Positions 8,716 to 64,000 of a stretch of 64,000 nucleotides of DNA are shown here, one piece after another (position 1 is the first letter of the stretch; each line of letters begins with the position of its first letter). This DNA comes from Stakelama saccharophila. GTDB taxonomy: Bacteria > Pseudomonadota > Alphaproteobacteria > Sphingomonadales > Sphingomonadaceae. The notes beneath the pieces were generated by a model. That model had not been told where the DNA came from, ran no database searches, and worked only from the letters and a program-made list of their open reading frames with translations. A program made the position numbers and the translations under genes. The stretch is from positions 1,655,001-1,719,000 of the forward strand of contig NZ_CP135076.1 in assembly GCF_032229225.1 (NCBI RefSeq), read 5' to 3'.

Positions 8716-11061
8716 TCAGGCGAAGTCGCTGGATCGCAGCGTCACCGTCCGGCCCCTCCGCAGCGCGCGCGAGAGCGACCCGTGCGGCGTGTGGATGACG
8801 CGCCTCCCGTCGCGCTCGGGATGGAGCGTCGCTTCTGTCACGCGCCCGTCGCGCCATGTCAGATCGAGACGGCATGCGCCGCGCACGCGGATGCCGCGCA
8901 GCGACCCCGCCGGCCATCCCGGCGGCAGCGCGGGCAGCAGGTCGATACGGTCGTCGCGGCTTTGCACCAGCATTTCGAGGATGCCCGCAGCACCGCCGAA
9001 ATTGCCGTCGATCTGAAAAGGTGGATGGGCATCGAACATGTTCGTATAGGTCCGGCCCGGCGACAGCAGGTGGATCAGGATACGGTGCGCATGCGCGCCG
9101 TCGCGCAGCCGCGCCCACAGGTTCAGCCGCCATCCCAGCCCCCAGCCGGTGGCGTCGTCGCCGCGCATCTCGAGCGAAGTCCGCGCCGCCCTGGTCAAGG
9201 CGGGCGTGTCGTCGGGGTTGATCTGATGACTGGGATAAAGGCCGTAGAGATGGGAGACATGGCGGTGGTGCGGATCGGTCGCATCCATGTCCCAGTCGAA
9301 CTGCCATTCCTGCAACTGGCCCTTCGCGCCGATCCGGTCGGGCGCGAGCCTGTCGCGCATGGCCGCCACATCGCGGCGCAGATCGCCGTCGCGGCCAAGC
9401 CGCTTCGCCGCCGCGCCGGTACGATCGAACAGATCGCGCAGGATTTGCATGTCCATCGTCGGGCCGGCGCATAGCGTGCTGCCATGGCCATGGTCGTTCT
9501 CGGGCGAAAACGAAGGGTTGGTGACCATATGGCCGGTGCGCGGATCGCGCACCAGCGTATCGAGGAAGAAGCGCGCCGCGCCCGCCAGCAACGGATAGAT
9601 GCGCTTCAGATAGGCGTCGTCACGGACATAGTCCCAATGGTCCCAGAGCTGGGTGGCGAGCCAGGCGCCGCCGGTCGGCCAAAGGCCGGTACGGGCATGG
9701 TCGATCGGCCCCGAGGCGCGCCACAGATCGGTATTGTGGTGCGCCACCCAGCCACGCGCGCCGTACATCTCCTTCGCCGTACGCGCGCCCGATACCGCGA
9801 GCTGTTCGACCATGGCGGTCAGCGGCTCGATACATTCGGAAAGGTCGGCGCTGTCGACCGGCCAGTAATTCATCTCGGTATTGATGTTGATCGTGTATTT
9901 GGATTGCCAGGGCGGCTGGTTGCTGTCGTTCCAGATGCCTTGCAGGTTCGCCGGCTGCGTACCGGGCCGCGAGCTTGAAATCATCAGATATCGCGCGAAT
10001 TGGAAATAAAGCGCGGCAAGCGACGGGTCGTCGCTGTCGGCGGCGTGTTCGAGGCGCTGATCGGTCGGCTGGTCGGCGCGTTCGCCCCGGCCGAGATCGA
10101 GCGAGACGCGGCGGAACAGTCGCTGATGCTCGGCGACATGCGCGTCGCGCAGCGCGGCGTAGCTCAGCCCGTCGACCGCCGCGAGACGCCCGATGGTGAT
10201 CGCGTTCGGATCGCCCGAAACGTCGCTCGGCGAGCGATGACTTGTCGCCGCGGTGAGCAGGAACAATACCGACCGGGCGTCGCGCACACGCAATATGGGG
10301 CCGTCGGCGCTGACCATGCCACCGCTCGCGCGGACCTTGCCCATCGCTGTGAATCGCAGCTTGCCGGCAATGCCGCGATCCTCGTTGTTGACGCCGTGCA
10401 TCGTCAGGGTCGCGTCGCTTGCGCTGACTTCCACCCGCTGCCCCGATGCGAGCGAAAAGTCGGCGGACACGGTCCCGCCTTCGGCGCGGATCGATACCGC
10501 GATCAGGTGGTGAACGGGAGAGGCGAAGACTTCGCGCACATAGGCCCTGCCCCCGGTGGTGAAGCGGGTGCGTGCAATGGCGGTGTCGAGATCGAGTTCG
10601 CGACGATAATCGGCGGCCGAAGTTTCATTGACCTGCGGCAGATCGATGAAACAGTCGCCGAGCGCCTGATACGCCATCTCGCGCATCGGCACCGCCTGGA
10701 CATGCGCGTCGGCATAGGCCTCGGCCTCGGCATATTTGCCGGCGAAGATCAGCTCTCGCACCTTGGGCAGCGCGGCACGCGCCTTTGGATTGACGTTCGA
10801 ATAGGGGCCGCCCGACCACAGCGTATCCTCGTTGAGCTGCAACCGTTCGCGCTTGATCCCGCCGAATACCATCGCGCCCAGCGATCCGTTGCCGATCGGC
10901 AGCGCCTCGGTCCATTCGCCGGCCGGATGCTGGTACCACAACAGTGAATGGCGCACCGCGTCCGCCGCCGTCCTATGCTGTTGCGATGCGCGCGACATCG
11001 GCGCCGAAAGCAGGGGTGCCATGACGCCTGCCCGCAATATCGTCCTTCGTCCCAGATCCAC
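8716..11061 (-). CDS. GH95 alpha-L-fucosidase (or alpha-L-galactosidase)
   Basis: This is a 781-residue glycoside hydrolase. The family hallmarks are clear: 'TEALPIGNGSLGAMVFGG', 'LQLNEDTLWSGGPYSNVNP', 'QPANLQGIWNDSNQPPWQSK', 'NINTEMNYWPVDSADL' (asparagines of the active site), and 'NPSFSPENDHG', holding the acid glutamate. GH95 enzymes remove alpha-1,2-linked L-fucose, or L-galactose, by inversion. I place the start at a GTG (11061) because GGGAG lies seven bases upstream and a twin-arginine motif 'GRRTILRAGVMAPLL' follows at once, giving Tat export. In-frame ATGs at 11103 and 11100 lack a ribosome site and would translate the operator. Length fits the family. Confidence 0.93.
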   Translation of the reverse strand: MDLGRRTILRAGVMAPLLSAPMSRASQQHRTAADAVRHSLLWYQHPAGEWTEALPIGNGSLGAMVFGGIKRERLQLNEDTLWSGGPYSNVNPKARAALPKVRELIFAGKYAEAEAYADAHVQAVPMREMAYQALGDCFIDLPQVNETSAADYRRELDLDTAIARTRFTTGGRAYVREVFASPVHHLIAVSIRAEGGTVSADFSLASGQRVEVSASDATLTMHGVNNEDRGIAGKLRFTAMGKVRASGGMVSADGPILRVRDARSVLFLLTAATSHRSPSDVSGDPNAITIGRLAAVDGLSYAALRDAHVAEHQRLFRRVSLDLGRGERADQPTDQRLEHAADSDDPSLAALYFQFARYLMISSSRPGTQPANLQGIWNDSNQPPWQSKYTININTEMNYWPVDSADLSECIEPLTAMVEQLAVSGARTAKEMYGARGWVAHHNTDLWRASGPIDHARTGLWPTGGAWLATQLWDHWDYVRDDAYLKRIYPLLAGAARFFLDTLVRDPRTGHMVTNPSFSPENDHGHGSTLCAGPTMDMQILRDLFDRTGAAAKRLGRDGDLRRDVAAMRDRLAPDRIGAKGQLQEWQFDWDMDATDPHHRHVSHLYGLYPSHQINPDDTPALTRAARTSLEMRGDDATGWGLGWRLNLWARLRDGAHAHRILIHLLSPGRTYTNMFDAHPPFQIDGNFGGAAGILEMLVQSRDDRIDLLPALPPGWPAGSLRGIRVRGACRLDLTWRDGRVTEATLHPERDGRRVIHTPHGSLSRALRRGRTVTLRSSDFA

Positions 11062-49801: not shown

Positions 49802-51082
49802 ATGACCGTGACCGACATCGCCGCGCGCAGCTATGCCCATGGCTGGCGGCTCGATCCGATCGTGCGCAGCCTGCTCGATACCGATTTCTACAAGCTGCTG
49901 ATGTTGCAGATGATCTGGCGGCTGCATCCCGATGTGCAGGCGACCTTCACCACCATCAACCGCACCAGGTCGGTGCGGATTGCCGAAGAGATCGACGAGC
50001 CCGACCTTCGCGCGCAGCTCGATCATGCGCGGACGGTTCGCCTGACCAAGAAAGAACGCATCTGGCTGGCCGGAAACACCTTCTACGGCGTGAAGCAGAT
50101 GTTCGCGCCGGACTTTCTGGACTGGCTCGCCGATTTCCAGCTCCCCGAATATGCGCTTTCGCGAGAGGACGGCCAGTTCGTCCTGCGTTTCGCCGGACCC
50201 TGGACGCACACCAGCATGTGGGAGATCCCGGCGCTCGCCATCATCAACGAATTGCGCACGCGCGCCGCGCTGAAAGGGCGCGGCCGGTTCGAACTCGACA
50301 TCCTCTATGCCCGCGCCAAGGCGCGGCTGTGGGGAAAGGTGGAGCAGCTCCAGACGCTGCCCGATCTGCGCATCTCGGATTTCGGCACCCGCCGCCGGCA
50401 CAGTTTCCTGTGGCAGCGCTGGTGCGTCGAGGCACTGAAGGAGGGGCTTGGCGATCGGTTCATCGGCACGTCGAACGTGCTGCTGGCGATGGACAGCGAC
50501 CTGGAGGCGATCGGCACCAACGGCCATGAATTGCCCATGGTGCTGGCCGCGAAGGCCGAAAGCGACGCCGAACTGCGCGCCGCCCCCTATCGCGTGCTGG
50601 AGGAATGGAGCGGCCTTTACGGTGGCAACCTGCTCATCGTCCTGCCGGACGCGTTCGGCACCGAGGCCTTCCTCGCCGACGCACCCGACCGGGTGGCCGA
50701 CTGGACGGGTTTTCGCCCAGACAGCGCGCCGCCGATCGAGGGCGGCGAGCGGCTGATCGCGTGGTGGCGTGAAAGGGGCCGGGATCCGTCGGACAAGCTG
50801 CTCATCTTTTCCGACGGCATGGACGCCGACACGATCGCGCAGACCTATCGCCATTTCGCCGGGCGCGTGCGGATGAGCTTTGGCTGGGGAACGAACCTCA
50901 CCAATGATTTCCGCGACTGTGACCCACGCGGCGAAGCGGGGCTCGTGCCGCCTTCGCTGGTCTGCAAGGTGACGAGCGCCGACGGCCGCCCGGCGGTCAA
51001 GCTGTCCGACAACCCCGCCAAGGCCACCGGCGATCGCGATGAAATCGCCCGCTACCTGCGCGTGTTCGGCGATGCCGGATAG
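49802..51082 (+). CDS. pncB: Nicotinate phosphoribosyltransferase
   Basis: This 426-residue enzyme of NAD salvage joins nicotinate to PRPP with ATP hydrolysis. Family blocks are '[21 protein letters not shown]', '[11 protein letters not shown]', '[15 protein letters not shown]', '[17 protein letters not shown]', '[12 protein letters not shown]', '[17 protein letters not shown]', '[18 protein letters not shown]' and '[15 protein letters not shown]'. AAGG six bases before the ATG. It is a housekeeping gene and marks the return to ordinary chromosome between the sugar and phosphate islands. Confidence 0.96.
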
Positions 51083-53098: not shown

Positions 53099-54772
53099 GT
53101 GGCGAATCGATCCGATCATTCCGATGGCAGGGAACCGCTTGCCAACCCCCGTCGCCGCTTGCTTCTGGGCGGCGCTGCTGCCGCGGCCGGGGTGGCCGCG
53201 TTCGGACACGGCGATGCGGTAGCGCGGACCGCCAATCCGGGCGGCGGCGCGGCGTCCGGATCGCTCGACGATGCGCTGCGCGAGCATATCGACACCGTCG
53301 TGGTGATCTTTGCCGAGAACCGCAGCTTCAACAATCTGTTCGGAAATTTCCCTGGCGTGGAGCAGCCCTTGTCCAAGGTTCCGCGCGAGCGCTGGCTGCA
53401 GCGCGATCGTGACGGCCGCGTGCTTGATACGCTGCCCCCGATCTGGGGCGGACTGGTGCCGAACAAGCAGGTCGCACGGCACCGCGAATATCAGATCGGC
53501 GAGGATGCCTTTCCGGCGCTCGACAACGCCCCCTTCGCGTTGCGCACGCCCGAGGGCGACCCGTTGCCGCAGGGGCTGGTCACCCGCGACCTGATCCACG
53601 CCTTCTACAACAACCAGTTGCAGATCAATGGCGGCCGCAATGACGGTTTCGTCGCCTGGGGCGACAGCGGTGCGCTGACCATGGGGCATTATGGCGACAA
53701 CAACACCAATATGCGCCTGTGGCGGATCGCGCGCGATTACACGCTGTGCGACAATTTCTTCATGGGTGCGTTCGGCGGATCGTTTCTCAACCACCAATAT
53801 CTGATCGCGGCGCGGCCGCCTTTCTATCCCGACGCGGACCGCAGTCCGGCCAGGGGACGCATCACCGTGCTGGAGGGCGACGATCCCAAGGGCATCCGGC
53901 CGAAACAAACCGCCGAATCTCCGGCGAGCGCGATGGATGGGCCGGTGCGCTTCGTCCCCAATTCGCTGTCGCCCGATTTCTATGCGGTCAACACGATGCT
54001 GCCGCCCTATGCGCCGACCTATCGGCTCGACCCCGCCCGGCCGGGCTATGGCGACTGGTCGGACGCGCACACAATGGTCCCGCAACGGCATGCGACGATC
54101 GGCGACATGCTGTCGGTACGCGGCGTCGACTGGGCCTGGTATGCCGGCGGCTGGGACGCGGCGATGGAGGGGCATGGCAACGACAAGGCGTTCCCATCGG
54201 AGCCGAATTTCCAGCCGCATCATCAACCGCTCAACTATTTCGTCCGCTTCGCGCCGGGGACCGATGCGCGCAAACAGCATCTGCGCGACGGCGGGACGGG
54301 CGAGACGGCGCGCACCAACCGCTTCGTCGCAGATGCCGAGGCCGGACGGCTGCCGAGCGTGACCTATTACAAGCCGCAGGGCAGCCTGAACATGCACGCC
54401 GGTTATTCGGACGTGGAGGCGGGCGACCGCCATATCGCCGGCGTCATCGACACGCTGCGCACCAGTCCGCAATGGGACAAGATGCTGATTATCGTCACCT
54501 TCGACGAGAATGGCGGTTGGTGGGACCATGTCGCGCCGCCCGCGGGCGACCGCTGGGGCCCCGGTACGCGGGTGCCGGCGCTGATCGTGTCGCCATATGC
54601 AAAACGGGGTGCGGTCGATCACACGATTTATGACACCGGCTCGATCGCCCGCTTCCTCGCCCGCCGTTTCGGGCTTGCGAAGCTTCCCGGCCTGATCGAG
54701 CGCGAACGCGCCATGATCGCCGCGGGCGGGCCGCCGCCGGGCGACCTTACGGGTGCGCTCGATCTCGCCTGA
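53099..54772 (+). CDS. AcpA/phospholipase C-type phosphoesterase, Tat-exported
   Basis: This 557-residue member of the phosphoesterase family includes AcpA acid phosphatase and non-haemolytic phospholipase C. A twin-arginine signal 'PRRRLLLGGAAAAAGVAAFG' is followed by 'IDTVVVIFAENRSFNNLFGNFPG' (metal/nucleophile region), 'CDNFFMGAFGGSFLNHQYLIA', 'WYAGGWDAA', and the C-terminal metal-binding 'IIVTFDENGGWWDHVAPP'. It would hydrolyse phosphomonoesters or phospholipid headgroups in the periplasm. GTG 53099 follows AAAGGGG. It converges with the PLD-family gene after three bases. First gene of the phosphate region. Confidence 0.9.
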   Translation: MANRSDHSDGREPLANPRRRLLLGGAAAAAGVAAFGHGDAVARTANPGGGAASGSLDDALREHIDTVVVIFAENRSFNNLFGNFPGVEQPLSKVPRERWLQRDRDGRVLDTLPPIWGGLVPNKQVARHREYQIGEDAFPALDNAPFALRTPEGDPLPQGLVTRDLIHAFYNNQLQINGGRNDGFVAWGDSGALTMGHYGDNNTNMRLWRIARDYTLCDNFFMGAFGGSFLNHQYLIAARPPFYPDADRSPARGRITVLEGDDPKGIRPKQTAESPASAMDGPVRFVPNSLSPDFYAVNTMLPPYAPTYRLDPARPGYGDWSDAHTMVPQRHATIGDMLSVRGVDWAWYAGGWDAAMEGHGNDKAFPSEPNFQPHHQPLNYFVRFAPGTDARKQHLRDGGTGETARTNRFVADAEAGRLPSVTYYKPQGSLNMHAGYSDVEAGDRHIAGVIDTLRTSPQWDKMLIIVTFDENGGWWDHVAPPAGDRWGPGTRVPALIVSPYAKRGAVDHTIYDTGSIARFLARRFGLAKLPGLIERERAMIAAGGPPPGDLTGALDLA

Positions 54773-54775
54773 GCA

Positions 54776-55891
54776 TCAACCGCCCGGATGGACCGGCGGC
54801 CGGGCCTTGGCGGTGGCGAAGCTGGCGGCGTAGCCGCTGTTCCATAGCTGGTTCTCCAACGCGCGCAGCCGCTTCTCCATCGCCGTGTCGCGCAAGACGA
54901 CCTCGACATTGCGCGACATGTCCAGATAGCCGCCTTCCCAGTTGCTCGTCCCGATCCAGGCCACGGCATCGTCGATCGTCATCACCTTGGTATGAACGAC
55001 ACGGGCATAAGGGATTGTGCCCGATGCGGGCTGCGGAATGCTGGCGACGCGGATTTCGACGCCCGGCACCGTCGCCAGGCTGGTCAGCCCCGGCAGCCGC
55101 TTGTCGGTCATCGCCCAGTCGGCGATTATCAGCCGGATCGTTAGCCCGCGCGCGGCAGCGGCGCGCAGCGCATCGTCGATGACATGATAGTCGCCGCCGC
55201 CGAACGCCGTGGTCGAATAGTCCATTACCTCGATCGCGATGCCGCGCTTTGCGGCACGGATCAGCTTGACCAATGTCGCTTGTGAATCGCCCACGCCGGG
55301 CGGATCATAGGCGTTGGGGCTGGCGACGAGCAGCGCATGGCCCTCGACCGGCGAATATTCACGCTTGCGCAGCGGCGGCACCGTCCTGCCCGCTGCGATC
55401 CGGGCCTGCGCTGTCCAATCATGGTCGAAAATCGCCTGCAGCCGGCTCGCCATGTCGGCATCGGTGATGCGCAGCCCGGTCTCATCGATCTGCGACAGCG
55501 ATCGCCAGTCGAAATTCTGGCTGCCGACATAGGCTTCGCGTCCGTCGACGATGAAGAACTTGGCGTGGATGATCCCGTCGCCGGCAATGTCGGACCAGGC
55601 GAGCGTGCGGAATTCAAGGTTCGGAATCCGCTTCAGCCGGGCGATGGTCGCCGGCTTCGACATGGCCTCGCCCTTTTTCTCCATCAGGAAGCGGATATGG
55701 ACGCCGCGCCGCCCGGCGGCGTCGAGCGCGGCGATGACCGTATCGAGCGCTTCGCCGGATCTGCCCGCGACATAGAATTGTTCGATCGCGACATCATGCT
55801 GCGCGCGATCGATCATATCGGCCCACACCGTCGCCGGGTCGCGCAGTGCGTATTTCGTATTCCGTATTCCGGTCTGTAACGATGCTGACAT
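54776..55891 (-). CDS. Phospholipase D-family protein (two HKD motifs)
   Basis: This 371-residue protein has two PLD catalytic motifs. The first is 'IIHAKFFIVDGREAYVGSQNFDWRS' near residue 110. The second is 'VVHTKVMTIDDAVAWIGTSNWEGG' near 300. Both keep His, Lys and Asp. The layout matches cardiolipin synthase/PLD-like phosphatidyltransferases. No signal peptide is evident, so it is cytoplasmic or peripheral. ATG 55891 with GTG 55897 as alternative. It is divergent from the sigma-factor gene with only 35 bp between starts, and a PHO-box-like repeat lies across its start codon. A role in phospholipid turnover under phosphate limitation is possible (inference). Confidence 0.9.
   Translation of the reverse strand: MSASLQTGIRNTKYALRDPATVWADMIDRAQHDVAIEQFYVAGRSGEALDTVIAALDAAGRRGVHIRFLMEKKGEAMSKPATIARLKRIPNLEFRTLAWSDIAGDGIIHAKFFIVDGREAYVGSQNFDWRSLSQIDETGLRITDADMASRLQAIFDHDWTAQARIAAGRTVPPLRKREYSPVEGHALLVASPNAYDPPGVGDSQATLVKLIRAAKRGIAIEVMDYSTTAFGGGDYHVIDDALRAAAARGLTIRLIIADWAMTDKRLPGLTSLATVPGVEIRVASIPQPASGTIPYARVVHTKVMTIDDAVAWIGTSNWEGGYLDMSRNVEVVLRDTAMEKRLRALENQLWNSGYAASFATAKARPPVHPGG
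55874..55891 (+). promoter_or_regulatory. PHO-box-like direct repeat
   Basis: CTGTAAC (55874-55880), a 4-bp spacer, then CTGACAT (55885-55891), resembling the PhoB box of two CTGTCAT-type 7-mers four bases apart. There are two mismatches in the first unit and one in the second. It ends 35 bp before the sigma-factor ATG but overlaps the PLD start codon, and no clear -10 follows, so this is tentative. Confidence 0.35.
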
Positions 55892-55926
55892 GTGCACGGC
55901 CCATTGGCGCGCCTGTCGTCAAACTT

Positions 55927-56508
55927 ATGCCGGAATCCATGGACGCGCTTCGCCCAATTGACCTTTGGTTCCTTGACGAGATTCTGCCGCATGAACCGAT
56001 ATTTCGTGCAAAGGCGCGAACGTTGGCCAACTCGGATGAGGAGGCGAGCGATCTCCTGCAGGAAGCCTTTGCGAAGTTGATGAGCGTGGATGGCTGGCAG
56101 GCAATCGAGTGCCCCCGCGCCTATACGCTAAGCATCTTGCGCAACCTGGCGATCAAGCGGCTGCGTAGAGCAAAGTTGATCGAATTCCGGCAACTGGCGG
56201 ACGCTGGACGGGACGAACCAGCCGATATCGCTCCGGATGCCTTTCAGATCCTTGCTGGTCGCGATCAGGTGCGGCTTGTGCTGGAGATCATCGACGCGTT
56301 GCCCGAACGCAACCGGCGGGTGGTCCGCATGCGCCGTATCGAAGGCAAAAGTCTCAAACAGATTGCCGAGTCTCTGCGACTGAGCCAGTCGACCGTAGAA
56401 AAGCGGCTGGCGCGCGGACTGGAACTCTTGACGCGGGCGCTGGAACGTGCGGACCGGATTTCGGTTTTTCGCGACACTTCGGCGACTTCCGGACGCCGCA
56501 CCGGATAA
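55927..56508 (+). CDS. ECF sigma factor, FecI-like
   Basis: This sigma-70 family protein is about 193 residues. Region 2 reads 'RAKARTLANSDEEASDLLQEAFAKLM...CPRAYTLSILRNLAIKRLRRAK'. Region 4 reads 'IDALPERNRRVVRMRRIEGKSLKQIAESLRLSQSTVEKRLARGLELL'. ATG 55927 is used. Codons upstream in frame (ATG 55882, GTG 55846) overlap the divergent gene. Followed after 76 bp by a FecR-type anti-sigma gene and then a TonB receptor with a signalling domain. This is the complete cell-surface signalling trio, so it should direct transcription of the receptor and phosphatase genes. Confidence 0.92.
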   Translation: MPESMDALRPIDLWFLDEILPHEPIFRAKARTLANSDEEASDLLQEAFAKLMSVDGWQAIECPRAYTLSILRNLAIKRLRRAKLIEFRQLADAGRDEPADIAPDAFQILAGRDQVRLVLEIIDALPERNRRVVRMRRIEGKSLKQIAESLRLSQSTVEKRLARGLELLTRALERADRISVFRDTSATSGRRTG

Positions 56509-56584
56509 TATCGTCAAAAAAGTGGTGGCGACAGCCGTCCTGGAACTCTTATGGGTAATGAGGGGCAAATGAGCAGGTACGCGT

Positions 56585-57598
56585 TTGCGACAGGAAACGC
56601 ACAGTAGCGACGAGCAGGACGCACTCGCAACGGCTGCCGAATGGTTCGCGGCTATTGATGCGGGCACAGCGGACATGTCGGCATTCGAGCGCTGGCGCGC
56701 GTCCGATCCTCGCAATGCGGTTGCCTTCGCGCGCATCGCCCGAAGCTGGCAGGCGATGGAAGATGTCGGAGACCTCGATCCCGATCGGCAGCGGGCCGGC
56801 AATGGTGCCAAGGAAGTCGCCCCGGCTCGCCTGACGCGGCGCGGCATCATCCGCGGGGCGATCGGGGCGGGCGCGGGCATGCTGGCGATCGGCGCAGGCG
56901 TGCTGGCGGATAGCGCGCCGAGCGAGGCGCATACGCGCGCCGGCGAGCGCCGGATGGTTGCCTTGCCCGGCGCGACCAGCATCGTGTTGAACGGCGACAC
57001 CGCAATCTCCTGGCGCAAGCATGACAAGCATATCGAAGTTTGGCTGGAGCGCGGAGAGATCGCGCTGGTGCTCCGTGAAGCACCGCTTCCGCTTCTCGTT
57101 CATGGCGGTAAGGCGTCCGCATTGCTGGAGCCGGGCCGATACAATGCCCGCCTTACGGGCGGGCTGCTGGATGTCGGGGTTATCCGCGGCACCGCTGCCC
57201 TGTCCATTTCGAATACCGTTTCCGCAGACGGGAGCGGATCCATCGTCAAGGCGAACGAAGCGGCGCTGGTCGGACGCGAAACGCATCTGCATCCGATGAA
57301 CAGCAAGCAGGTCGAGGCGCTGCTTGCCTGGCCGCACGGCGAAATCGTCTTCAACGATGAACCGCTCTCGGTCGCGATCGAGCGGTACAACCGCCAATCG
57401 CCGGTAAGACTGGTGCTCGGCGATCCTGCGCTTGGAAATATTCGGGTCGGCGGACGGTTCACCTCCAGCAACCCGAATTCCTTTCTGAAGGCGTTGCGCG
57501 CATCATTCGATATCCGCGCCGAGCGGACCGACAAGGCCGTCGTGCTGATGGGCGGCAAAAAATTTATTCGATCGGATTTGGCGGTTCCGGCAAGCTGA
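56585..57598 (+). CDS. FecR-type anti-sigma factor / sigma regulator
   Basis: This 337-residue membrane protein has a cytoplasmic N-terminal DUF4880-type domain ('ALATAAEWFAAIDAGTADMSAFERWRASDPRNAVAFARIARSW') that binds the sigma factor. A twin-arginine-containing membrane helix 'TRRGIIRGAIGAGAGMLAIG' (about residues 80-105) follows. The periplasmic FecR domain reads 'RMVALPGATSIVLNGDTAISW...VWLERGEIALVL', and a C-terminal STN-like segment reads 'FNDEPLSVAIERYNRQSPVRL'. The start is TTG 56585, with AGCAGG seven bases upstream. It relays receptor occupancy to the sigma factor encoded just before it. Confidence 0.92.
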   Translation: MRQETHSSDEQDALATAAEWFAAIDAGTADMSAFERWRASDPRNAVAFARIARSWQAMEDVGDLDPDRQRAGNGAKEVAPARLTRRGIIRGAIGAGAGMLAIGAGVLADSAPSEAHTRAGERRMVALPGATSIVLNGDTAISWRKHDKHIEVWLERGEIALVLREAPLPLLVHGGKASALLEPGRYNARLTGGLLDVGVIRGTAALSISNTVSADGSGSIVKANEAALVGRETHLHPMNSKQVEALLAWPHGEIVFNDEPLSVAIERYNRQSPVRLVLGDPALGNIRVGGRFTSSNPNSFLKALRASFDIRAERTDKAVVLMGGKKFIRSDLAVPAS

Positions 57599-57644
57599 AG
57601 GGTCTTTCCGTCCGAGGCATCACCTTTCGAGCCACGGGGGAAAA

Positions 57645-60479
57645 ATGAACCGCAACGCTATCGCTTCGCTGGGCATGTTGTCGGCCGCCGCTATGACGGC
57701 CAGCGCGCCGGCGTCCGCTCAGACCACGATGCAGGAATACAATATAGGTCCGCAGTCGCTTTCGTCGGCGCTGCAGGAATTTTCGCGCGTATCCGACATC
57801 CAGGTCCTGTTTCCTTCGGACGCCATTGCCGACAGGCGAACTGACGGTATCCACGGCCGGATGACGGCGCGCGAGGCGGTGCAGCGCCTGATCGATGGCA
57901 GCAGGCTTCGCATTGCGAGCATCGACGACAACACGATCGCGCTGACTGCCATCACGACGGACACGACCAGGGCACCGCAGGTCGCCAGCACCGATGCCGG
58001 CCGGGACATCATCGTCACTGCCCGCGTCGCGCGCGAGAAGGCGATCGCGATGAAACGCGAAGCGACCAATATTCGCGAGGTCGCCACGGCGGATTCGGCC
58101 GGCAAGCTGCCCGACAAGAACCTGGCGGATGCGCTCAGCCGCCTCACCGGTGTTTCCTTGGAGCGAGACAAGGGCGAGGGGCGCTTCGTTTCGATCCGCG
58201 GAATTTCGCCCGAATTGAACAATGTGACGCTGGGCGGGCAGCCGACCGCGCTTCCCGATGTCGACGGCCGGGCCGGCCGGGCCGCGCCGCTCGACGTAAT
58301 CGGATCGGGCGATTTTCAGGCGGTCGAGGTGATCAAGACGCTGCGTCCCGACATGGATGCGCAAGGCATCGGCGGCACCATCAACATCCTGCCGCCCAGC
58401 GGCTTCGACCGGACCAAGGCATTCGGCTATGCGTCGGCGGAATACGGCGTCAACGATCTCGAATCCGCTGCCGATATCTACAGCGGCAGCGCCGGATACG
58501 GCACCCAGTTCGGCGATGGCGGCATGGCGCTGTTTCTGGGCGGCGAATATTCGAAGCGCGAATACCGCACCGAGAATGTTGCCGGGTCGCGTTGGAGCGA
58601 GGAAGGCGGCTATTATGTGCCCGACCGGCTGCGCTTGCAGAATTTCAGTTCCTCGCGCGAGCGCTACGGCCTCACCGGCAATCTCGACATGCGCAACGAT
58701 GACGGCAACAGCGGCTATTTCCGCGTCGTCTATAACCATTTCACGCAAGAGGATTATCGTCCCGAACTGCAATTCGACAAGGACGGAAACATCCTGAATC
58801 AGACGCCGACCACCGGCACCTTCACCGAAGGCGACGTCAACCTGGAATCGCTGCGCAAGGAAGCGGAACGGTCGATCCTCAACATGAGCATAGGGTCCAA
58901 GCTCAGCTTCGGCGACGGCAGTCTGATCGTGGAACCGCAATTCACCTATTCCAAGGCGCACGAGAATGTGCCCGTCTATGACGCCTATGAATTCAACGTC
59001 GATGAGAACCAGCCGATCGACTATGATCTGAGCGACCAACTCTTTACCTTCGATACCGGGCAGATGCGGTTCGACCCGGCCAATTTCGTGCTCGACGAAT
59101 TCCGCATCGATACGTCGAAGGAAAAGGAACAACTGCTCGTTCCCTCGCTCGACGTGACGTGGAAGCCGGAGCTTCTGGGGACGGGCACCTATTTCAAGAT
59201 CGGCGGCAAGGCGACGTTGCGGCACCGTTTCGTCAACGACAATTCCAACCGCTACAATTCGGTCGATCCGCTTTATCTCGACGGGTTTTCAATTTCCGGG
59301 CCGGATGATTTCCGGGGGAAGTACAATATCGGTCCGTTGCCGGACCAGGACGCGCTGCGCGCCTATTTCGACGCCCATCCCGAAGCGTTCGCGCTGAACG
59401 AGGCGCGCTCGATCAGCAATTCGTTCGAGGACGATTACGATATCACGGAGAAAATCTTCGCCGGCTATGCGCTCGCCAATCTCGATCTCGGAGCACTGAC
59501 TTTGCTTGGCGGCGTCCGCGTGGAGCATACCGATACGACGATTGGCGCGACGCAGGTTCTCGAACTCGACGGCGATTTCGCCGGCACCGAACCGATGACC
59601 GGCAAGCACAACTATACCGATGTCTTTCCCAACGTGCAGGCGCGTTATGACATTACCGACACGCTGCTGGTGCGCGCGGCCTATACTACGGCGATGGGGC
59701 GGCCCGATTATGTCGCGCTGGCGCCGATTTCGACGCTGGAGGCTGACGAGACGACACCGGGTTCGAACCTGTATGACGGCGAACTGGAGATCGGCAATCC
59801 CGAACTGAAACCGTACAAGGCGCAGAATCTCGACCTCACGCTGGAATTCTATCCCAACAAGGGCGGGCTGCTCTCGGTGGGCGCGTTCTACAAACATGTC
59901 GACAACCCTATCTTCGAACGCAGCCTGTTCTTCACCGACGTCACGCGCGACGGTCGCGACTTCCGGGAACTGAGCGTCGACACGACGGAAAATGCCGAAA
60001 GCGGCGAAATCTACGGGCTGGAGGTGAATGTGCAGCAGCAACTCGCCTTCCTGCCGGGCCTGTTGTCGGGTTTCGGCGTTTCGGCCAATGCGAGCTTCAT
60101 CAAATCGTCGGTCACCGTGTTCGGCCGCGACGACGACCTGTCCTTCTTCACGCAGCCCGACCGCGTCTATAATGCGCAGCTCTTCTACGAAAAGGGCATC
60201 ATCGCGGCGCGCGTCGCCTACCAATATCGTTCCGAGTTCCTCGAATCACTGGGCGGCGAAGCGATGGAAGACATCTATCAGGACAGCAACGGCCAGCTCG
60301 ATGCCAAGCTGAGCGTGAAACTGCTCAAGAATGTCGTTGCCTATGCCGAAGGGCAGAACCTGACCGACGAGCCGTTCCGCCGCTATCAGGGCGTGCCATC
60401 TCACCTTGCCGGCGAAGGCGAATCCGGCAACGAGATTTTCGGACGCACCTTCCGCTTCGGCCTGTCGGCGCAGTTCTAA
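57645..60479 (+). CDS. TonB-dependent transducer with N-terminal STN signalling domain
   Basis: This is a 944-residue outer-membrane receptor. After a signal peptide (to 'APASAQ') comes an STN domain, residues about 28-105 ('YNIGPQSLSSALQEFSRVSDIQVLFPSDAI...MTAREAVQRLIDGSRLRI'). The plug follows ('DIIVTARVAREKAIAMKREA', 'GKLPDKNLADALSRLTGVSL', 'GIGGTINILPPSGFDRTKAF'), and a barrel ending 'GRTFRFGLSAQF'. The STN domain is what contacts a FecR protein, encoded immediately upstream. Unlike FecA/FpvA systems there is no iron gene nearby. Three phosphatase genes follow, so the ligand may be an organophosphate (inference). The PhoD gene starts 19 bp after the stop. Confidence 0.95.
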   Translation: MNRNAIASLGMLSAAAMTASAPASAQTTMQEYNIGPQSLSSALQEFSRVSDIQVLFPSDAIADRRTDGIHGRMTAREAVQRLIDGSRLRIASIDDNTIALTAITTDTTRAPQVASTDAGRDIIVTARVAREKAIAMKREATNIREVATADSAGKLPDKNLADALSRLTGVSLERDKGEGRFVSIRGISPELNNVTLGGQPTALPDVDGRAGRAAPLDVIGSGDFQAVEVIKTLRPDMDAQGIGGTINILPPSGFDRTKAFGYASAEYGVNDLESAADIYSGSAGYGTQFGDGGMALFLGGEYSKREYRTENVAGSRWSEEGGYYVPDRLRLQNFSSSRERYGLTGNLDMRNDDGNSGYFRVVYNHFTQEDYRPELQFDKDGNILNQTPTTGTFTEGDVNLESLRKEAERSILNMSIGSKLSFGDGSLIVEPQFTYSKAHENVPVYDAYEFNVDENQPIDYDLSDQLFTFDTGQMRFDPANFVLDEFRIDTSKEKEQLLVPSLDVTWKPELLGTGTYFKIGGKATLRHRFVNDNSNRYNSVDPLYLDGFSISGPDDFRGKYNIGPLPDQDALRAYFDAHPEAFALNEARSISNSFEDDYDITEKIFAGYALANLDLGALTLLGGVRVEHTDTTIGATQVLELDGDFAGTEPMTGKHNYTDVFPNVQARYDITDTLLVRAAYTTAMGRPDYVALAPISTLEADETTPGSNLYDGELEIGNPELKPYKAQNLDLTLEFYPNKGGLLSVGAFYKHVDNPIFERSLFFTDVTRDGRDFRELSVDTTENAESGEIYGLEVNVQQQLAFLPGLLSGFGVSANASFIKSSVTVFGRDDDLSFFTQPDRVYNAQLFYEKGIIAARVAYQYRSEFLESLGGEAMEDIYQDSNGQLDAKLSVKLLKNVVAYAEGQNLTDEPFRRYQGVPSHLAGEGESGNEIFGRTFRFGLSAQF

Positions 60480-60498
60480 AGGGGAAGGAAGAGCCGTG

Positions 60499-61905
60499 AT
60501 GCGATTGCCGCGACGCAAGCTTCTGGGCGCGATCGGCAGCATCGCGGCGCTGCCCGCGACGATGCGTTCCGCACGCGCCGCCGAGCCCCGGCTGTTGCAA
60601 GGGCCGATGGTCGGTTCGCCGGGCGCCGGAGACATGACGATCTGGAGCCGGGCGAGCGGTCCCTTTCAAGTCGCCGTCGAATATGCCGACAATGCGCAGA
60701 TGGTGGGCGCGCGCATGTCACCGCCCGTCACTGCTCATCCCGACGACGACTATACCGTGCGTAACCGGCTGGCCGGCCTGGAGCCGGGCACGCGCTATTA
60801 TTACCGCATGTACGTGTCGGGCGAACGGCCGCGCTATCAGCGGAAGCTGCCGCCCTTCAGTTTCCGCACGGCGCCATCCGGGTCCGCGCCGTTCCGCATC
60901 GCTTACGGTTCGTGCCTGCGCGTCGAGCTGGACCAGCAGCAGCGCATCTGGGAAGCGGTCGCCGCGCGCGAGCCCGACCTGTTCCTGTGGCTGGGCGACA
61001 ATATCTATGGTGACGCACTGCGCGCCGAGACGCTGGCAGAGGAATATCGCAAGCAACGCGTCGTGCCTGCGCTTCAGCCGGTGCTGCGCTCGGCGGGCAA
61101 CCTCGCCATCTGGGACGATCACGATTACGGTCTGAACGACGGCGACCGCACCTCCACGGTGAAGGTCGGCGCGCTGGGAGTATTTCGCAATTACTGGGCC
61201 AATCCCGCGCACGGGCTGCCGCACACGCCGGGCGTCTTCTTCGACTATCATTATGGCGGCGTGCATTTCATCTTCCTAGACGGGCGCTATTACCGCGATC
61301 CGAACAAGGCGGAGAACACGCCGCAGAAAACGCAGCTCGGCGCCGCGCAGAAAGCGTGGCTGAAGGAAAAGCTGCGCGGCAGCGACGCGGTGTTCAAGGT
61401 GCTGGTGTCGGGCGGCGGCTGGTCGAAGGCGAAGGGTCCGCATGGTGACGGCTGGTCCGCCTTCCTGCACGAGCGCGACGAGATTTTCGATTTCATCCGC
61501 GATGAAGGGATTGGTGGCGTTATCGGCATGTCCGGCGATACGCATTGCGCCGAACTCAACTGCGTGCCGCGTTCGGAAACGGGCGGCTACGACTTCTATG
61601 ATCTCGGTTCCTCGCCCATGGCGCAGGACACCGATTCCGACTGGGCCTATCGCCGTCCCGAGCGGCGCATGCGCGAACCTTATGACGGCGGCCCCAATTT
61701 CGGGGTGATCGATTTCGACGCCACCGCCGAGCGGCCGTGGATCGAATCCTGCGTGGTCAACGAATATGGCCAGAATGTCTGGGAACCGCTTCGCATTTAT
61801 GCCGATGAGCTGGTGAACGGCGCGCGCACCTGGCCTGATAAGATGGATGGAGATGCCCGTGCCTGGCACCGGCTGGTGGGGCAGAAGGATATTGCCGATG
61901 CCTGA
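60499..61905 (+). CDS. phoD: PhoD-type alkaline phosphatase/phosphodiesterase (1)
   Basis: This is a 468-residue protein. The Tat signal 'LPRRKLLGAIGSIAALPATM' directs it to the periplasm. The N-terminal Fn3-like domain ('QGPMVGSPGAGDMTIWSRASG') is followed by the metallophosphatase core: 'RIAYGSCLRVELDQQQ', 'LWLGDNIYGDALRAE', 'LAIWDDHDYGLNDGDR', 'IFLDGRYYRDP', 'VLVSGGGWS' and 'GVIGMSGDTHCAELNC'. These are the Ca/Fe-site residues of the PhoD family. ATG 60499 has AAGGAAGAG upstream. A longer frame from 60406 would overlap the receptor. The next gene, a paralogue, overlaps its end by eight bases. Confidence 0.95.
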   Translation: MRLPRRKLLGAIGSIAALPATMRSARAAEPRLLQGPMVGSPGAGDMTIWSRASGPFQVAVEYADNAQMVGARMSPPVTAHPDDDYTVRNRLAGLEPGTRYYYRMYVSGERPRYQRKLPPFSFRTAPSGSAPFRIAYGSCLRVELDQQQRIWEAVAAREPDLFLWLGDNIYGDALRAETLAEEYRKQRVVPALQPVLRSAGNLAIWDDHDYGLNDGDRTSTVKVGALGVFRNYWANPAHGLPHTPGVFFDYHYGGVHFIFLDGRYYRDPNKAENTPQKTQLGAAQKAWLKEKLRGSDAVFKVLVSGGGWSKAKGPHGDGWSAFLHERDEIFDFIRDEGIGGVIGMSGDTHCAELNCVPRSETGGYDFYDLGSSPMAQDTDSDWAYRRPERRMREPYDGGPNFGVIDFDATAERPWIESCVVNEYGQNVWEPLRIYADELVNGARTWPDKMDGDARAWHRLVGQKDIADA

Positions 61906-63385
61906 TTACCCCGACCATGACGAACGCCGCGCCCTGAAGCTTCGGCGGCGCACGATGCTGGCGGGAATGGGCGCACTCGCCGCCGCGCCGCTGCCGGTTC
62001 GCGCGCGGCGGAGCGAAACCGGCAATCCACGCCTGATGCAGGGGCCGATGGTTGGTGCCGTTACCGGAAGTGAAATCCTGATCTGGGGCCGGGCAAGCGG
62101 ACCTTATCGGGTCGAGATCGAATATGCCGACAATCCCGATTTCGCGAATGCTCGGCGCAGCGCGCCGGTGCAGGCACAGGCGGAGCGCGATTTCACCACC
62201 GTCAGTCGCCTGACCGGCCTGGAATCGGGCAGGCGTTATTATTACCGACCGCTGGTGGAAGGCGATCAGCCCAAATATCGCCAGGAGCTGTCACCCTATT
62301 CCGTGCGCACCGCGCCGGCGGAGCCGGCCAAGATCCGCATCGCCTTCGGATCGTGCGCGCGGGTGCAGGAGGACCCGGAGCAGCCGATCTGGGGTGCGGT
62401 GCTGCGCAGCGAGCCCGACCTGTTCCTGTGGCTGGGCGACAATATCTATGCCGACAGCCGTATTCCCGGCGTCATGGCCGAGATCTACCGCCGCCAGCGC
62501 GACGTGGCGGGTGCGCAGCCGGTGCTGCGCCAGGTGCCGCAGCTTGCTATCTGGGACGACCACGATTTCGGCGAGGGCGGCGCGGACCGGACCTTCGCCA
62601 CGCGCGAGCAGTCGCTGGCTTTGTTCAAGCAATATTGGGCGAACCCCGCCTATGGCCTGCCCGACGCGCCGGGGGTGTTCTTCCGCTATTCCTATGGCGG
62701 GACGGACTTCTTCTTTCTAGACGACCGCTATTATCGCGATCCAAACGATATGCCGCAAAGCGCCGAGAAAACGCAGATCGGCGCCGCACAACGCGAATGG
62801 TTGCAACAGTCGCTGCTGGAAAGCGACGCGCCGTTCAAGCTGGTGATCGCGGGTGGTGGTTGGACGCGCACGCAGCCAGACGAGCAGCCGGTCGGATGGG
62901 GCTCGTGGGCGTCGTTCCTGCACGAGCGCAATGCGCTGTTCGACTTCATTCGCGACAACCGGATCGGCGGCGTCGTGCTGTTATCTGGCGACACCCATGC
63001 CGGCGAATTGAACGCCGTGCCGTGGTCGGCGCGCGGGGGATATGATTTCTACGATCTGGTCGCATCGCCGCTGGCGCAGGACACGTCGATCAATTGGTTC
63101 CGCAGACGCCCCGAACGCCGCATCCGCGGGGCCTATGCCGGCAGCGCCAATTTCGGCGAGTTGGAAATCGATGCCGCCGCGGACCGGCCGAAGCTCACCT
63201 ACAAGCTGCGTAACATTTATGGAAAGAGCGTGTGGAACGATCTGGTCCTTTACGCCGACGAACTGGTCAACGGCGTGACGAGCTGGCCGGGGAAGATGAG
63301 CGGGGACGGACGCGACTGGCATCATATGGTCGGGGATCTCACCGCCAACGATTGGGCGATGATCGATGCCGGGCATGATCGGTAG
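61898..63385 (+). CDS. phoD: PhoD-type alkaline phosphatase/phosphodiesterase (2)
   Basis: This 495-residue paralogue of the preceding protein has the same architecture: twin-arginine-containing signal 'LKLRRRTMLAGMGALAAAPL', 'MQGPMVGAVTGSEILIWGRASG', 'IAFGSCARVQEDPEQP', 'LWLGDNIYADSR', 'LAIWDDHDFGEGGADR', 'FFFLDDRYYRDPND' and 'VVLLSGDTHAGELN'. ATG 61898 has AAGGAT seven bases upstream and overlaps the first phoD by eight bases, so they are translationally coupled. The two differ mainly around the substrate entrance (residues 205-240), suggesting different phosphoester preference rather than simple redundancy. Confidence 0.95.
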   Translation: MPDYPDHDERRALKLRRRTMLAGMGALAAAPLPVRARRSETGNPRLMQGPMVGAVTGSEILIWGRASGPYRVEIEYADNPDFANARRSAPVQAQAERDFTTVSRLTGLESGRRYYYRPLVEGDQPKYRQELSPYSVRTAPAEPAKIRIAFGSCARVQEDPEQPIWGAVLRSEPDLFLWLGDNIYADSRIPGVMAEIYRRQRDVAGAQPVLRQVPQLAIWDDHDFGEGGADRTFATREQSLALFKQYWANPAYGLPDAPGVFFRYSYGGTDFFFLDDRYYRDPNDMPQSAEKTQIGAAQREWLQQSLLESDAPFKLVIAGGGWTRTQPDEQPVGWGSWASFLHERNALFDFIRDNRIGGVVLLSGDTHAGELNAVPWSARGGYDFYDLVASPLAQDTSINWFRRRPERRIRGAYAGSANFGELEIDAAADRPKLTYKLRNIYGKSVWNDLVLYADELVNGVTSWPGKMSGDGRDWHHMVGDLTANDWAMIDAGHDR

Positions 63386-63407
63386 GACGACAAGGGACGC
63401 GAGCAGC

Positions 63408-64000
63408 ATGGACAGGCGACAATTTTCAAGGGGCGCGATCACGGCGCTGGCCTTTGCCGGCCTGGCGCGCGGCGTGTCGGCCTGGGCACGGCAGGACGCC
63501 GTCGGCGAGGATGGCAGCCGGCGCTTCGCCTATCGCAATCAGGTGCCGGGCTATGGCCCGCTGAAGCCCGATCCCGTTGGCCTGCTGGACCTGCCCGAAG
63601 GCTTTTCCTACCGCATCGTGTCGCAATTGGGCGATCGGATGGATGATGGTTTCCGCGTACCCGACAGCGCGGACGGCATGGGTGCGTTCGACCTGGGCGG
63701 CGGCCGCATCGCGTTGGTCCGCAATCATGAACTCGATCCTGACGAGCTGCCAAAGGGACCCGCCGGCACCGAGGCCGGGCGCCTGCACGGCCTGGCCGCG
63801 TTCGACCATGACGGCGACGGGCATGCGCTTCCGGGCGGCACGACCACGCTGGTGCTCGATGCCGCGACGTTGACGCCGGTCCGCCAGCATCTCAGTCTTG
63901 CCGGCACGGTTCGCAACTGCGCGGGTGGCACGACGCCCTGGGGAAGCTGGTTGAGTTGCGAGGAAACCGTCGACCGTTGCGGGAAGGCACATGGCTGGGT
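63408..64000 (+). CDS. phoX: PhoX/DUF839-family phosphatase, N-terminal part (cut by window end)
   Basis: The frame is open from ATG 63408 to the window edge, giving about 197 residues. A signal with 'MDRRQFSRGAITALAFAGLA' (twin arginine) is followed by 'YGPLKPDPVGLLDLPEGFSYRIVS', 'GRIALVRNHELDPDEL', 'GGTTTLVLDAATL' and the diagnostic 'TVRNCAGGTTPWGSWLSCEE'. This is the PhoX-type calcium/iron phosphatase or DUF839 beta-propeller. It lies 22 bp after the second phoD and completes a run of three exported phosphatases behind the TonB signalling genes. The C-terminal metal ligands are outside the window. Confidence 0.9.
   Translation, partial: MDRRQFSRGAITALAFAGLARGVSAWARQDAVGEDGSRRFAYRNQVPGYGPLKPDPVGLLDLPEGFSYRIVSQLGDRMDDGFRVPDSADGMGAFDLGGGRIALVRNHELDPDELPKGPAGTEAGRLHGLAAFDHDGDGHALPGGTTTLVLDAATLTPVRQHLSLAGTVRNCAGGTTPWGSWLSCEETVDRCGKAHGW

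Follow-up and report, generated by a model that had tools for sequence, protein, structure and literature searches.

We have identified a candidate two-input circuit for organophosphate scavenging in Stakelama saccharophila (Sphingomonadaceae). It lies in a window of 64 kb, bases 1655001-1719000 of the 3.19 Mb single-contig genome; positions given without a locus identifier are those of the window. Calls of open reading frames (ORFs) and family searches reveal one run of genes encoding an extracytoplasmic function (ECF) sigma factor, a FecR-type regulator, an STN-bearing TonB receptor, two PhoD enzymes and a PhoX-type phosphatase. In the circuit that we regard as quite likely, PhoB arms the sigma/FecR pair, a ligand frees the sigma factor, and the sigma factor transcribes receptor-phoD-phoD-phoX. 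PhoB binding, sigma specificity and ligand gating are parts of this circuit that we infer from sequence.

The signalling trio and its phosphatases

The gene for the FecI-like ECF sigma factor (Pfam Sigma70_r2 and r4_2) is on the forward strand, from GTG 55846 or ATG 55927 to 56508, with 55882 as another possible start. The gene of the FecR-type anti-sigma regulator lies at 56585-57598 (+), its last codons holding an element (57559-57586) described below, and its product has DUF4880 and FecR domains, both above cut-off. The receptor gene follows at 57645-60479 (+; TIGR01782, 546 bits) and encodes a full beta-barrel (PF00593) with an N-terminal STN domain at residues ~31-103. The first PhoD gene (60499-61905, +) scores 79.9 bits with PF09423, above cut-off, as measured on a longer ORF from 60406; its product resembles the Bacillus subtilis PhoD structure 2yeq (E 1e-9) and carries the twin-arginine-like signal RRKLLG. 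The second (61847-63385, +, later start codons being possible; PF09423, 89.9 bits, above cut-off) encodes a protein with 55% identity to the first, again with a twin-arginine-like signal, and the genome gave no PhoD match besides these two. The gene of the PhoX-type phosphatase (+; PF05787, 283.5 bits, above cut-off) starts at 63408 and runs to ~64790, past the window end (whole gene, L002:12408-13790); the protein has a partial match to the solved PhoX structures 4amf/3zwu (E 6e-15). The twin-arginine motifs suggest export of the PhoD and PhoX enzymes by the twin-arginine translocation (Tat) pathway, and their enzymatic function is likewise predicted.

The first-pass annotation, made from the sequence of the stretch, had described a sigma-FecR-STN receptor set followed by two PhoD genes and a PhoX gene, and the ORFs, the families and the spacing bear it out: 19 nt separate the receptor and first PhoD genes, the two PhoD genes overlap, and 22 nt separate the second from the PhoX gene.

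The STN domain is real, as judged from sequence and structure matches, despite a score below the Pfam cut-off (23.1 vs 28.4 bits, E 6.6e-5). By sequence, the receptor N-terminus matches signalling domains of known structure from FecA (1zzv, 2d1u) and PupA (2a02). An AlphaFold2 model built on a six-row alignment has block-mean pLDDT of 80-92 across residues 31-100, and a Foldseek search with the modelled domain matched FpvA, FecA and PupB (E 6e-7 to 6e-4). Since the domain is retained and folds like the FecA and FpvA signalling domains, ligand gating is suggested.

A distinct FecR clade with phosphoesterase neighbours

By its sequence the window FecR belongs to a distinct clade. We searched 151 genomes of the genus with it, scoring the best 14 candidates per genome, so that clade members may be missed. 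The scores were bimodal: besides the window's own match, at least 26 places in 18 other genomes scored 139.6-183.5 bits, and the next score was 98.9. The case set comprises the 26 best FecR matches after the window's own (L108, L126-L132, L134-L151; L133 overlaps L146), and the control set 34 of the next 37, at 79.6-98.9 bits (L152-L185); both were picked by FecR score, not by neighbours. A search of 397 genomes of the family, with the best five candidates per genome, added at least 12 FecR loci outside the genus at 1e-30. A tree was made of 67 FecRs, from the window, L036 (a Sphingopyxis metagenome-assembled genome), 24 of the 26 case loci, 10 of the 12 out-of-genus loci and 31 of the 34 controls, the rest having no called FecR. 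The window, L036, case and out-of-genus sequences all (36/36) fell on one side of one branch with support 0.998, a separation that is in part expected because the loci were picked by similarity.

A family-recognised phosphoesterase, CehA/McbA enzymes counted, is found within two genes of 23 of the 26 clade loci and of 7 of the 34 controls (Fisher 2.4e-7, a nominal value because the loci are related); without CehA/McbA the counts are 18/26 and 4/34 (7e-6, nominal for the same reason). For cases and controls alike, the two genes are counted outward from the block that the trio forms with any adjoining ORFs >800 aa. Assignment of families to loci relied on phmmer and on seeds drawn in part from the case loci, and the Pfam and NCBIfam totals for the case set agree with this assignment. 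Family counts cover the first 25 of 111, 177, 674 and 966 families, so that an isolated control phosphoesterase from some other family may have escaped the count; the control family scans omitted four ORFs >1000 aa (L152, L153, L180, L181).

Among 93 case neighbours Pfam recognised at least seven calcineurin-type phosphoesterases, at least five PI-PLC, at least five PhoD and at least three PLC/AcpA-type enzymes, with an S1/P1 nuclease in L127; NCBIfam added at least eight CehA/McbA hydrolases. As to the three clade loci without a counted enzyme, L130 has its receptor missing from its place, L150 has a CehA/McbA gene just beyond the range, and L151 has an S1/P1-like protein that the family libraries do not recognise. 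Such S1/P1-like proteins (L143 and L151, unrecognised by Pfam and NCBIfam; L234, unrecognised by NCBIfam) stay outside the strict counts. Among 115 control neighbours Pfam found at least four PhoD, and four of the 34 controls (L162, L174, L180, L181) have a PhoD, PLC or purple-acid-type enzyme. Three more (L161, L182, L183) have PHP-type proteins that match CehA/McbA below the NCBIfam cut-off. Outside the genus the recognised neighbours are PhoD (L227) and calcineurin-type (L232) enzymes by Pfam, and CehA/McbA (L230, L231, L233) and PhoD (L234) enzymes by NCBIfam.

Two side observations follow. At L164:8854-9564 an ORF labelled as sigma (26 bits) also matches PHP-type seeds (40-49 bits); the sigma gene there may be preceded by a PHP-type end, either fused to it or left as a remnant. 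At L039:5857-17842 (Asticcacaulis endophyticus) a trio with PhoD is followed directly by a trio with a gene resembling purple acid phosphatase, and the Pho scores before the two sigma genes are 15.3 and 8.4.

A Pho-box-like element before the sigma gene

At 55872..55905 (+) stands a Pho-box-like element with a weak -10-like sequence behind it; its distance to the conserved sigma codons (RPIDLW) downstream is 79 nt. A Pho box is probably present at the sigma promoter, and PhoB would bind there. Two TGTCA-like half sites 11 bases apart are followed, after ~9 bases, often by CTAG; half sites, spacing and CTAG together have the geometry of a PhoB-activated promoter. In E. coli the Pho box replaces the -35 element near the -10, as stated in the relevant passages of PMC4971064.

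The first scan employed the E. coli Pho-box consensus. On the same strand it scored 8 or more before 17 of 25 clade sigma genes (window, L036 and 23 case loci), against a mean of 2.2 and at most 7 in 200 sets of dinucleotide shuffles; the opposite strand of the same regions gave 6/25, and control sigma genes gave 7/25 vs a shuffle mean of 2.2. We then used a Pho profile trained on 13 high-scoring case sigma upstreams from other genomes, with the window excluded and training loci scored leave-one-out. The window sigma site scored 14.2 bits, the second of 127,934 positions in the 64 kb. As a positive control, the genome's own pstS scored 17.0 bits; the site there runs into the earliest ATG that could serve as start, but is ~60 nt upstream of the ATG with which the likely signal peptide opens. 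A btaA-like gene (betaine-lipid, assigned by eye) scored 12.8 bits and is also preceded by a match to the genome-wide Pho pattern.

Measured from called sigma starts, scores of at least 10 bits were found in 15/23 case and 5/25 control loci, and in 12 of 3000 random regions. Anchoring on the sigma N-terminus raised the clade figure to 20/24 (23 case loci and L036), with 6 of 3000 random 160-nt regions; for anchored loci outside the training set the element was present in 7/11. In the controls the box accompanies the enzymes, being found in 5/7 with a phosphoesterase or PHP-type neighbour vs 0/18 without (p 4e-4), or in 3/4 vs 2/21 (p 0.016) when only the four Pfam-type controls are counted. 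The PHP-like control genes were first spotted in nine controls chosen after the Pho scores were known, and phmmer over all control neighbours returned the same three loci. Outside the genus the best Pho position in ~1 kb around the sigma gene reached 10 bits in 9/12 loci and 9.7 bits in 11/12; sigma codons could be anchored in 10, with nine sites 75-92 nt upstream, a range that includes the 79 nt of the window, and the tenth locus, L237, without a box.

A second element before the receptor gene

The probable sigma-dependent promoter of the receptor and phosphatase genes is a conserved element at 57559..57586 (+), inside the last fecR codons. It was found by expectation maximization on 28 regions around the receptor start, window included, with 20 starts; the score was 400.7 vs 147.7-150.2 in three shuffles (6 starts each). 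The element consists of a W-rich tract and, ~8-10 bases on, TRGCGGTT. With a scoring profile rebuilt from 18 sites of other loci, the window left out, the window element scored 31.0 bits and the next best in the 64 kb 12.8; the window site is also the sole zero-mismatch match of the derived pattern in the genome.

The element scores at least 14 bits in 24 of 27 clade loci (not L136, L137 or L150), 18 of the 24 having trained the profile. Its place in the 24 is ahead of the receptor or of a unit of receptor and CehA; in L130 it comes immediately after fecR. It is not a mere signature of fecR coding, because in L126 and L146 the receptor is not behind fecR and in L141, L142 and L149 the site faces a divergent receptor-CehA unit. 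In L130 the element (10413-10440) is intact at 30.8 bits directly behind fecR with no receptor following; the related L131 and L132 have a receptor and a phosphoesterase at the corresponding place. Outside the genus the element reaches 16 bits in 6/12 loci.

The Pho profile gives a strong score before just one gene of the finding, the sigma gene, and the second-element profile likewise before just one, the receptor gene, where the best Pho score in 250 nt is -9.1. A separate promoter for the phosphatases, which the first-pass annotation had named as a possible refutation, was looked for, and neither profile exceeds 3.8 bits in the 250 nt before phoD1, phoD2 or phoX. A relaxed second-element pattern has 16 matches in the genome vs 7 for the reversed pattern. 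The 15 one-mismatch sites, those on the reverse strand examined roughly, show no clear wider regulon, and we therefore assume a private circuit.

Receptor relatives without a trio

Ten relatives of the receptor that lack a trio were fetched, which is not a full ranking. In seven (L112, L113, L114, L116, L118, L119, L122; not L111, L117 or L121) the receptor gene itself bears a Pho element. In a further relative, L115, there is a trio whose FecR is of another type, with a Pho element before the sigma gene and not before the receptor. Neighbours resembling histidine-acid phytase are found in L113 (Pfam), L114 and L115 (both by eye), and neighbours resembling beta-propeller phytase in L036, L111, L121 (NCBIfam, below cut-off) and L122 (by eye); L111 has in addition a UhpC/PgtP/GlpT-like transporter (below cut-offs). 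No phosphatase was seen by eye beside the receptors of L112, L116, L117, L118 and L119. As a separate observation, the receptors of L117, L118 and L119 adjoin an unassigned propeller-like protein of ~260-300 aa, and in L118 and L119 the receptor gene has the Pho element.

The Pho elements of these relatives and their phytase-type neighbours favour a phosphate ester as the ligand, and the ligand probably is one; inositol phosphate or a phosphodiester are our best guesses. The same relatives suggest that in the window a relay has come to stand between PhoB and what was formerly its direct target.

Genes around the circuit

Upstream lie an AcpA-like phosphoesterase gene (53099-54772, +; TIGR03397, 749 bits) and a gene for a PLD-like protein (54776-55897, -). 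ORF and family calls agree with the first-pass annotation that these stand next door; their membership of the locus was not supported. Neither carries a Pho or second element and no PLD-labelled gene occurs in the clade loci examined, so both were rejected as parts of the circuit.

Behind the PhoX gene a 177-aa ORF (L002:13815-14348, window ~64815-65348) looks by eye like a partial beta-propeller protein and may be truncated. The genome has a second sigma-FecR-TonB receptor trio (L004:8562-12874), outside the described clade, whose receptor holds the one STN match that a scan of the genome gave. A gene resembling nicotinate phosphoribosyltransferase lies beside the clade trio in L144 (11219-12523) and ~5 kb before the trio in the window (49802-51082), possibly a shared insertion site.

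The proposed circuit and its alternatives

The circuit would work in four steps. On phosphate starvation active PhoB would bind the Pho box and the sigma and fecR genes would be transcribed. By analogy with the FecA and FpvA families, FecR would hold the sigma factor until the receptor's ligand signals through the STN domain. The freed sigma factor, to judge from the conserved second element, would then transcribe receptor-phoD-phoD-phoX. Finally, as their families suggest, the Tat-exported PhoD and PhoX enzymes would free phosphate from the imported or surface-bound ester. The first-pass annotation had proposed an organophosphate locus with its own sigma factor: phosphate-linked surface signalling, the dedicated sigma factor and one candidate promoter before the receptor and phosphatase genes agree with that proposal, while the probable PhoB layer above the sigma factor was not foreseen.

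A number of observations weigh against this circuit. The window's own box is imperfect, with three mismatches to two CTGTCAT 7-mers by hand count, and in its -10-like part it reads CCAT in place of CTAG. A Pho-profile match at 1715 (-) outscores the sigma site (14.8 vs 14.2 bits); it lies inside a long ORF, and we take it as probably, not provenly, due to chance. The genome-wide Pho pattern is unenriched (9 matches vs 7 for the reversed pattern). The second element reaches 14 bits in 5 of the 34 control loci, one of which (L180) has it before a receptor followed by PhoD; extra matches at this level occur in L127 and L128, and three of the six out-of-genus elements are at the sigma-fecR junction. 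The CehA/McbA enzymes may not all be phosphatases. The first-pass annotation had advised a survey of related genomes for the receptor/PhoD/PhoX adjacency; the linkage to phosphoesterases was found as described, but the window's PhoD type is rare (4 of the 151 genus genomes). Only 6/12 out-of-genus clade loci have a phosphoesterase neighbour, five having none and L226, at a contig end, being not assessable; because the box is present in 9/12 of the same loci, the sigma gene's tie to phosphate carries over beyond the genus better than does an adjacent enzyme gene.

It is unlikely, though the most serious alternative, that the locus is a plain Pho-regulon operon in which PhoB drives everything and sigma/FecR serves as a feed-forward amplifier with no external ligand. 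The restriction of the Pho element to the sigma gene, among the genes of the finding, would fit such an amplifier, as would the element found directly on the receptor gene in most of the fetched trio-less relatives; the retained STN domain, with its FecA/FpvA-like fold, and the separate conserved element before the receptor argue for gating instead. Less probable still is scavenging of phosphorylated carbon, in which the carbon skeleton is what the cell seeks, with phosphate as a by-product. Import of glycans is common among TonB receptors, and the downstream genes (L002:14270-19416), read by eye without a family search, look like sugar-acid catabolism; Pho-box control of the sigma gene and the many unrelated phosphoesterase folds among the neighbouring enzymes speak against it. 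We reject as very improbable an ordinary iron- or siderophore-sensing trio with phosphatase genes adjacent by chance: such trios are classically iron systems and the N-terminal region matches FecA and FpvA, but phosphoesterase linkage and Pho elements track the FecR clade, and an E. coli Fur-box scan before sigma, receptor, phoD1 and acpA was not clearly better than shuffles (other alphaproteobacterial iron motifs were not searched for).

The two-input circuit, quite likely for the window, can be extended to the clade with less assurance, and on balance we lean towards this extension. The FecI/FecR clade would then be an organophosphate surface-signalling family under PhoB, in which the regulator pair is kept while the receptor and the phosphoesterase (PhoD, PhoX, calcineurin-type, PI-PLC, PLC, S1/P1 or CehA/McbA) are exchanged between one locus and the next. 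Each locus would act as an AND-gate for phosphate starvation and ligand, and the window would hold a relay inserted into a receptor family that is otherwise under direct PhoB control.

Relation to known systems

The nearest known systems are VreAIR and the PUS loci of Flavobacterium. In Pseudomonas aeruginosa, according to the passages concerned in PMC4971064, VreA/VreI/VreR (PUMA3) comprises an ECF sigma factor, an anti-sigma factor and a receptor-like protein under PhoB and phosphate starvation; VreA has no barrel, the Vre sigma factor has a link to virulence genes, and PhoB binds, in addition, at promoters targeted by VreI. Against that description, the likeness is a sigma, anti-sigma and receptor set tied to PhoB and phosphate (here by sequence); unlike VreAIR, the window receptor keeps its barrel, and no Pho element precedes it, the presumed target of the sigma factor. 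The PUS loci of Flavobacterium johnsoniae, as portrayed in the relevant parts of PMC8115612, have low-phosphate-induced TonB transporters beside phosphomono- and diesterases, some with ECF sigma or FecR-like genes. In contrast to these Bacteroidetes SusCD-type complexes, so far as they are described there, the window has a TIGR01782 receptor and another FecI/FecR clade; no SusD-like neighbour was found among the ten window proteins scanned by Pfam, with no search aimed at SusD. In Caulobacter crescentus the PhoB regulon takes in TonB receptors along with a phytase and further enzymes that release phosphate, and FecR and 'sigma factor' are absent from the main text of that paper (PMC11208175). 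Unlike in that regulon as the main text presents it, a sigma/FecR relay here stands between the Pho element and the receptor.

The gene set, its order and the STN fold are those of the FecI/FecR/FecA and FpvI/FpvR/FpvA trios, whereas the neighbours and the element before the sigma gene point to phosphate, not iron. Phosphate, phosphatase and PhoB are absent from the main text of a review of ECF-controlled uptake of iron carriers (PMC9249621). Among the matches listed in the open-access literature, subscription papers being outside the scope, we found no FecI/FecR trio tied to phosphatases in sphingomonads. The present system differs from the known ones in its regulator clade, in having the Pho element before the sigma gene alone and in the range of enzymes that accompany a single regulator pair.

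Organic phosphorus constitutes a large store of nutrient, and little is known of how bacteria tell which ester is present outside the cell. If our reading is true, the receptors of the clade would be ready-made sensors for specific phosphate esters, with ligands that reporter assays could read out, and in these genomes the sigma factors that are commonly labelled as iron-related would need re-annotation. The locus would also be a case, open to testing, in which a signalling relay has been placed between the global regulator PhoB and an old target.

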